Assembly (NCBI GenBank): GCA_014360335.1
Contig: JACIXS010000130.1
Coordinates: forward strand, 1-36,187
Direction: 5' to 3'
Length of the DNA: 36,187 nucleotides
Origin: a bacterium
Lineage (GTDB): Bacteria; DUMJ01
The notes below the pieces were generated by a model, which saw only the letters and a program-made list of their open reading frames with translations, was not told where the DNA came from and did no database searches. The position numbers and the translations under genes are program-made. Every line of letters begins with the position of its first letter. Position 1 is the stretch's first letter. Below are positions 26 to 5,248 of the stretch, piece after piece.

Positions 26-34
26 TGGTATAAT
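26..34 (+). promoter_or_regulatory. Extended -10 promoter element, rightward
   Basis: The sequence TGGTATAAT gives a consensus -10 box with an extended TGn element. No convincing -35 is present; the region 17 bp upstream is T-rich. Transcription would start near position 41 and run into the inverted repeat at 51-131, then antisense to the nitrilase gene. No plus-strand gene follows for 1.7 kb, so this may drive a small RNA or be fortuitous. Confidence 0.3.
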
Positions 35-50
35 GGTAAGTATCAATTAA

Positions 51-131
51 AATCACTCCTTTCTGGTTTGGATTTTTTATTATAGTATATCAATTCCAGC
101 CAGAAAGGAGCACTCTTTCTAAAAAGTGATT
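51..131. repeat. Nested inverted repeat at the end of the nitrilase gene
   Basis: Two arm pairs are visible. CTCCTTTCTGG (56-66) is exactly complementary to 100-110, and AATCACT (51-57) is exactly complementary to 125-131, overlapping the nitrilase stop codon. The inner loop is about 33 nt, too long for a standard intrinsic terminator, and neither side has a clean T-tract right after the stem. It may end transcription of udk-nitrilase or form part of a small RNA. The pairing is seen directly; the role is unknown. Confidence 0.45.
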
Positions 132-4303: not shown

Positions 4304-4804
4304 CTAGAAGCTATTCCACTTTAACACCTCTTCTAAACTCTTCTTGGGAACCTGTCTATTCTCTTCCATTGGGTATCCAACTGATATGAGTGTCATAAGC
4401 TCCATATTATCCGGACAGTTTAACACTTCTTTTATTTTTTGAGATTGTGATTTTTTATAAACGTTTATCCAGCAGGTCCCTAATCCATAGCTCTGAGCGG
4501 ATATAATCATATTTTCAGTAGCTGCACAGGCATCTTCAAGGCCGGTTTCTGCATCCTTCTCACAGAATACTGCAATACAGGCACCTGCAGAGCTTATAAA
4601 TTTACCAGAAGTAGTAGCATTTGCTACTTTCTCTTTCATCTCTTTATCGACTACAACTACAAAGACCCAGGGCTGTTTGTTATAGCCTGAAGGAGCTAGT
4701 CTTCCACAGTCAACTATATCCTCTAAAATCTCTCTAGGAATTTCTTTATCTATATACTTTCTCACACTTCTTCTTGACTTTATAACCTCTACTACTTTAT
4801 TCAT
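4304..4804 (-). CDS. Nitroreductase family protein (FMN oxidoreductase)
   Basis: An FMN-dependent NAD(P)H oxidoreductase of the nitroreductase superfamily, cytoplasmic, usually homodimeric. The N-terminal RRSVRKY motif binds the FMN phosphate; GRLAPSGYNKQPW and GLGTCWI are further family signatures, and VGYP near the C-terminus is typical. The 166-residue length matches the short class. The open frame extends 23 codons upstream into hydrophobic noise; I chose the ATG at 4804 because GAGGAGGGCTT directly precedes it and the family motif then starts about ten residues in. The natural substrate is unknown. It stands alone on the minus strand with its own extended -10. Confidence 0.9.
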   Translation of the reverse strand: MNKVVEVIKSRRSVRKYIDKEIPREILEDIVDCGRLAPSGYNKQPWVFVVVVDKEMKEKVANATTSGKFISSAGACIAVFCEKDAETGLEDACAATENMIISAQSYGLGTCWINVYKKSQSQKIKEVLNCPDNMELMTLISVGYPMEENRQVPKKSLEEVLKWNSF

Positions 4805-4838
4805 AAGCCCTCCTCTTTTAAAAGTAAAGATTATTATA

Positions 4839-4847: not shown

Positions 4848-4887
4848 TTAGCTAATAGTAGTAGAAAATTCAATCAATCTGGGATTA

Positions 4888-4985
4888 ACTACCACAACTA
4901 CCAGGACTACCAGGTATTTTAAACAAATCTATATAGAGCGAAGAAATTGTTTTAAAAACGTGGTAGACGTGGTAGTCATGGTAGT
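4888..4985. repeat. 98-bp imperfect palindrome built of ACTACCA heptamers
   Basis: The left arm carries ACTACCA three times at exact 9-bp spacing (4888, 4897, 4906). The right arm carries the inverse, TGGTAGT or TGGTAGA, three times at the same spacing (4961, 4970, 4979). The complementarity continues inward through TTTAAACAA (4918-4926), paired imperfectly with 4947-4955, to a central CTATATAG (4929-4936). The arms are thus about 45 bp with scattered mismatches. It lies in the gene-poor stretch 4805-5271 between the divergent nitroreductase and protease genes. It could be a long RNA hairpin, a multi-site operator or a small non-autonomous repeat; nothing decides between these. Confidence 0.8.
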
Positions 4986-5008
4986 CGCATACTGCTTAAG
5001 AATACAAA

Positions 5009-5248
5009 ATGCTTATGGTAAAGTTAATTGATAAGAATAAACAAGTTACCTGTTACTGTTCATTCAAGTGTAGAAATCTGAGAAAATTCAAGTATAATAT
5101 TAGTATGAAGAAGCGTATTCCTATATTCCTTGATATAATAGACGATAAGAAAAGTATCATCTCGATGAAGGTTTTCTTTACAGTAATCTTCGGCCTTTCG
5201 ATACTGGTAATTATATCTTCAATAAGCTACATAACAAGCTTAAGATAA
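5009..5248 (+). CDS. Doubtful small open frame with C-terminal hydrophobic segment
   Basis: A 79-codon open frame (or 47 codons from the ATG at 5105) ends 23 bp before the C11 protease gene. The last 25 residues could form one membrane helix (VFFTVIFGLSILVIISSI). Neither ATG has a ribosome site, and the first half contains CGT and TCG codons that are rare in this window. A TATAAT at 5093-5098 without a good -35 lies inside it and may instead be the protease promoter. I do not recognise the protein and think it more likely non-coding. Apart from this, the palindrome and the promoters, the stretch 4805-5271 appears empty. Confidence 0.18.
   Translation: MLMVKLIDKNKQVTCYCSFKCRNLRKFKYNISMKKRIPIFLDIIDDKKSIISMKVFFTVIFGLSILVIISSISYITSLR

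Follow-up and report, generated by a model that had tools for sequence, protein, structure and literature searches.

The stretch of DNA analysed here (the window) is the 36,187-nucleotide contig JACIXS010000130.1, which belongs to a genome (G000) assembled to 2.37 Mb in 433 contigs. It contains a large palindrome inserted between two divergent genes. On one side is a gene of the nitroreductase family (4304..4805, minus strand), whose start was set at the ATG conserved in relatives, and on the opposite side is a small conserved ORF of 47 amino acids (5105..5248, plus strand). This ORF has a hydrophobic segment and is placed directly upstream of a clostripain gene. Its frame is intact in the related genome G001, with a one-codon deletion, and can be aligned in a third genome of the genus, G002. 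No rep gene was found near the palindrome, whose neighbours are the nitroreductase gene and the small ORF with the clostripain gene. Since this copy (C37) is not located 3' of a primase-helicase gene, it is termed here an orphan copy rather than a working origin.

The whole element, an orphan origin-like palindrome to which no strand is assigned, extends over positions 4884..4999, which is the extent of its identity with another copy of the same genome (C203). The left arm is composed of three ACTACCA units on the plus strand (4888..4894, 4897..4903 and 4906..4912). The right arm is read on the minus strand and holds unit 3', TGGTAGA, with one change (4961..4967), followed by units 2' and 1', both TGGTAGT (4970..4976 and 4979..4985). 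The strict 9-bp period of three heptamers per arm, which had been claimed from the letters of the sequence, was confirmed, a single base of the six units being altered. The interior (4913..4960, no strand assigned) comprises the inner stem and the loop, is mostly AT-rich and has a majority of columns that are invariant across the genus; it is a candidate unwinding region. At its centre the palindrome is 81% A+T. The original prediction gave the arms about 45 bp of complementarity and considered CTATATAG to be central; the measured arms are 39 nt, and CTATATAG sits in the loop at 4929-4936, the centre of symmetry being 4936.5.

With its 39-nt arms and 20-nt loop the palindrome scored 21.5 and is by far the top inverted repeat of the window, the runner-up stem scoring 12; the best stem in ten first-order Markov windows reached at most 15. 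The pattern ACTACCA-N2-ACTACCA, with two mismatches or fewer, was matched four times in the window, where 0.30 matches are expected; none of 100 shuffles gave as many. When the seven copies described below were compared, the two arms were complementary at 128 of 147 unit positions and at 7 of 28 spacer positions, the latter being the chance level. It is thus the units and their pairing that are kept and not a perfect stem, which agrees with the earlier remark that mismatches fall mainly between the units. The stem also shows covariation, with nine double-changed cells and a score that was reached by none of 500 shuffles.

The minus strand of the palindrome is predicted to fold into a very stable RNA (-44.3 kcal/mol, z = -8.5), as might a structured RNA, a terminator or an attenuator. 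Such a function is nevertheless extremely unlikely. No Rfam family was matched at gathering score, the spacers between the units are not kept paired, the insertions are found upstream of divergent genes, and no T-tract follows the end of the stem. This leaves the earlier suggestion of a structured RNA unsupported and bears out the earlier statement that the element does not have the design of a terminator. The sub-threshold Rfam matches were to microRNA families only and were taken as artefacts of the long hairpin.

A search of the host genome and its relatives, which had been proposed as a check, revealed a dispersed family. The covariance model identified seven copies in three genomes of the genus: G000 has three, while G001 and G002 have two each, these counts being based on sequence and covariance-model searches of the three genomes. 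The other genomes searched, which all belong to other families, gave short, chance-level matches only. Within G000 the window copy is accompanied by C203, with 99% identity, and by C386, with 100% identity over 101 bp. The two G001 copies are 99% alike, and copies of G000 and G001 share about 87% identity.

Comparison of the flanks shows that three copies, that of the window among them, are insertions which relatives lack. Both flanks of C37 and of C133 are conserved in G002, and both flanks of C203 in G001, in each case without the element and with a shorter intergenic region, the intergenic divergence being too great for exact junctions to be placed. For C37 the comparison rests on G002, because its flanks in G001 are on separate contigs. 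It had been proposed that absence from close relatives would suggest chance or a recent local duplication, but this rule does not hold here, the element being present elsewhere in the same and in related genomes.

Of the five copies that are not ancestral, four are placed between divergent genes, among them that of the window, and the genes flanking three copies are related to redox or iron functions (nitroreductase, FAD oxidoreductase, ferritin). A transcription factor acting on the ACTACCA units of divergent promoter regions would account for this location. However, identity within a genome is 99-100% over the full length of about 100 bp, in the spacers and the loop as well as in the units, against 87% between species, and orthologous promoters lack the element. 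Both facts point to copying and not to separately evolved sites, and we consider a regulatory array of this type very improbable.

The copying itself could be due to a non-autonomous MITE- or REP-like palindrome moved by an unidentified transposase, in which case the adjacency to a rep gene described below would be coincidental or the result of an old copy having inserted there. This would explain near-identical dispersed copies at sites empty in relatives, most of them (C37, C203, C133 and G2C3) between divergent genes. C37 and C203, alone among the copies, are bounded by TTAA at either end, which is the sole hint of a target preference; no parent transposon was found. On the other hand, there are only two to three copies per genome, and the Y1 (PF01797) RAYT transposase is absent from the three genomes, the controls being positive in five genomes. 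Moreover the shared ends differ according to the pair of copies compared: C133 and C40 remain alike for a further 15 nt of flank, in which the stop codon of a HEPN gene is contained, and C37 and C203 share about 5 and 14 nt. Although the numbers are small, such variable ends argue against a transposase with fixed ends and fit the capture of DNA pieces centred on an origin. A mobile repeat would also leave without explanation the pRN1-like position and the arm period that were observed at other rep genes. We therefore regard it as an improbable explanation. The small mobile palindromic repeat of the original prediction stands as far as dispersal into sites empty in relatives is concerned, but not as an ordinary REP, for which the Y1/RAYT transposase would be missing.

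The copies C386 (G000) and C40 (G001) are orthologous, each being enclosed by the same pair of neighbours, a HEPN gene and a helicase gene. This copy is the ancestral one, its flanks being common to two species and its identity being 87% despite saturated synonymous sites. The stem begins 28 bp (C386) and 25 bp (C40) past the 3' end of the helicase gene, which encodes a PrimPol-SF3 protein (Rep) and is present in the genus as a single copy, one per genome. The encoded protein contains the domains PF08706 (D5_N) and PF19263 (DUF5906), together with PF09250 (Prim-Pol) in G001 only. The Rep of G001 matches TIGR01613 ('phage/plasmid primase, P4 family'), its nearest relative among chains with a solved structure is 7OLA ('DNA primase'), and the helicase part has 34-37% identity with ORF904 of pRN1 and pHEN7. 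When the two genes are compared, the Rep of G000 (L070:6666-8018) is seen to have lost the Prim-Pol of about 240 residues present in G001 (L072:956-3025) by an in-frame deletion which leaves the helicase frame open. Between G000 and G001 the dN of Rep is 0.10 and synonymous sites are saturated (pS 0.84), so that the helicase is under strong purifying selection. A non-coding palindrome that is 87% identical beside such saturated sites is itself strongly conserved.

In G002 only a helicase-gene remnant of 32 residues was found at the ancestral locus, next to HEPN, MNT and tRNA-Val genes. This region (C7, L199:2232-7341) includes, beside the tRNA-Val, a large helicase-like protein of 1119 aa, classed by eye, and two HEPN/MNT-type pairs in addition to the rep remnant, and looks like an integration or defence hotspot. 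The tRNA-Val is about 0.9 kb from the ancestral copy, but integration there with an attachment duplicate was considered and rejected, no partial duplicate being present in the stretches examined. A link to four-helix-bundle/IVP proteins (PF05635) gave no match in the genus, control genomes being equally silent, and a literature search for GxxExxY returned nothing relevant.

The position of the ancestral copy recalls known origins. Plasmid pRN1 has a 100-bp stem-loop which starts 54 bp 3' of orf904 and whose integrity is needed for replication, as two studies found; in one of them the bare stem-loop, placed at another site of the plasmid, was enough to restore replication, and the same study remarked on a comparable stem-loop 3' of rep in phage BIP-1 (PMC4234260, PMC3869888). 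Our stem finder recovered this published origin at +54, where it ranked first among the inverted repeats of pRN1. The helicases of SaPI and of SCCmec (Cch2) have iterons directly downstream of their genes, and Cch2, which is of the D5/Primase_Cterm kind, binds via its C-terminal domain (PMC7581432).

Collections of plasmids and phages supplied 24 PrimPol/D5-SF3 replicons, chosen from the best and spread hits and not at random, in which the inverted repeats near the rep end were examined within a search zone of 700 bases which was our own choice. In 16 of the 24 a stem was found near the rep end whose arms measured 14 nt or more, and in 13 of these 16 it was the top stem of the stretch examined; the remaining eight had no clear near-rep stem in this zone. 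The best arm lag was 9 in 12 of the 16 near-rep stems and in 8 of 47 control stems located elsewhere in the same records. Lag-9 arms that were individually significant numbered 8/16 and 3/47, respectively (Fisher p = 3.6e-4), the positive replicons being partly kin (the pRN family and two lactobacillus plasmids). The arm units include TGTCCATAG and TGTCCAAC in pRN1, TGTCACCAC and TGTCACAAC in pHEN7, CTAACACAG and GTAACACAG in Salinibacter pSR11, GTTCCATAA and GTTCCAACA in the Pediococcus replicon, TGGACGGAT and TGGACAGAT in mycophage ZoeJ, and ACGTTTATC, ACGTTTAAC and ACGTT in the satellite Javan171. Streptococcus phages show the same architecture with a period of 8; their units, of the GTTACC type, differ from phage to phage. 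A T-run just inside the stem is common to many of these replicons, but not to all, and was not used as a criterion. The pRN1 stem is already known; the new part is the 8-9-bp arm units common to such replicons, of which no earlier description was found in the literature searched, a body that excludes preprints and most subscription journals.

Related arrangements were noticed in two further plasmids. Caldicellulosiruptor pATHE01 (L234, reverse complement 1765-1910) has an inverted repeat with 9-bp arm units, TTCACTCTA, within the 3' part of its Prim-Pol/AAA gene, and a Halomarina plasmid (L239:5337-6228) has three successive inverted repeats downstream of the primase gene, all with a best arm period of 9. 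A broad hairpin class defined as (ACCA-N5)x3 - 34..64 - (TGGT-N5)x3 was matched many times, in FCPU426, Sterolibacterium and Rhodospirillales among others. These dispersed hairpins have 9-bp arm units of the (CACCAAGGA)n type (L076-L155, e.g. L127:512-618, L154 and L092) and include some of Sterolibacterium bin-427. They are alike by construction and, since the PF19263 helicase was found in only 2 of 15 such genomes, we do not claim them to be the same thing. The genes between distant arms at these loci showed no consistent pattern. Pattern matches in viral contigs were mostly one repeated sequence occurring in many contigs, with no consistent hairpin.

The ancestral copy 3' of an ORF904-like Rep, the equivalent position of the pRN1 stem-loop and the shared 8-9-bp arm period lead us to suggest that the palindrome is probably a chromosomal orphan copy of an iteron replication origin of the pRN1/SaPI type. 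Each ACTACCA heptamer would be a putative iteron to which the DNA-binding part of Rep attaches. At the two opposed arrays of three, two helicase hexamers could be loaded so as to face the AT-rich centre, and this centre would then be melted and primed. Given the unit pairing and the covariation, cruciform extrusion may accompany this step. The array of sites for a protein recognizing ACTACCA in both orientations, as originally proposed, fits such an inverted iteron array, and the units are kept in the copies of the family; the identification of the protein as the Rep helicase is our own proposal. More tentatively, short pieces centred on the origin, perhaps products of aborted initiation, might be captured at chromosomal breaks, which would give rise to orphan copies with variable short flanks. 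The dispersed G000 copies have lost neither the interior nor any of the six units, so that binding of Rep to them would still be possible. Orphan copies may bind Rep and need not replicate anything.

Several observations speak against an orphan origin. The window copy has no rep nearby, the Rep of G000 is without Prim-Pol and G002 keeps only a Rep remnant. Collections of viruses, phages and plasmids yielded no autonomous replicon with exactly this origin, and close relatives of the G001 Rep were represented in viral contigs by one weak match only. The replicon survey is also weakened by the third of its members without a clear near-rep stem, by the kinship of several positives and by its non-random sample.

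It is also conceivable, though in our view doubtful, that the orphan origins have a function in the chromosome, as decoys or as control sites of a domesticated Rep helicase; the Rep of G000, although without Prim-Pol, has a helicase that is under strong purifying selection when compared with that of G001. If this were true, the host would use the solo origins to interfere with related invading replicons or to titrate them, or else to steer Rep to chosen promoters. Solo chromosomal origins would be an unusual class of low-copy dispersed repeats, and raise the question of debris or decoy. The arm units with a period of 8-9 bp, which occur in plasmids of archaea and bacteria as well as in phages, offer a concrete candidate, open to testing, that would unite the pRN1 stem-loop and the SaPI iteron origins under one architecture.

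The class of origin is known; the solo chromosomal copies, like the shared arm units, are new. Among the closest systems is Sulfolobus pRN1, which like the ancestral copies has a hairpin of about 100 bp just 3' of a PrimPol-SF3 rep, with an AT-rich loop and arms of direct repeats at a 9-bp period (the repeats being our own reading of pRN1). The present family differs in its bacterial host, in having three units per arm with unpaired spacers instead of two units in a perfect stem, and in its orphan copies, which are scattered over chromosomal sites away from rep. In SaPI and SCCmec Cch2 an initiator helicase is likewise followed directly 3' of its gene by short iterons, but the origin has been described only inside the island, whereas here solo copies exist elsewhere (PMC7581432). 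The alpha protein of phage P4 is similar as a single primase-helicase initiator that binds repeated sites (discussed in PMC4234260) and different in its bacterial-type primase. REP/REPIN elements with RAYT (PMC3116915) are also short, dispersed, intergenic palindromes; in contrast, the genus studied here has no Y1/RAYT gene, only seven copies, arms of 9-bp units and an ancestor linked to rep.
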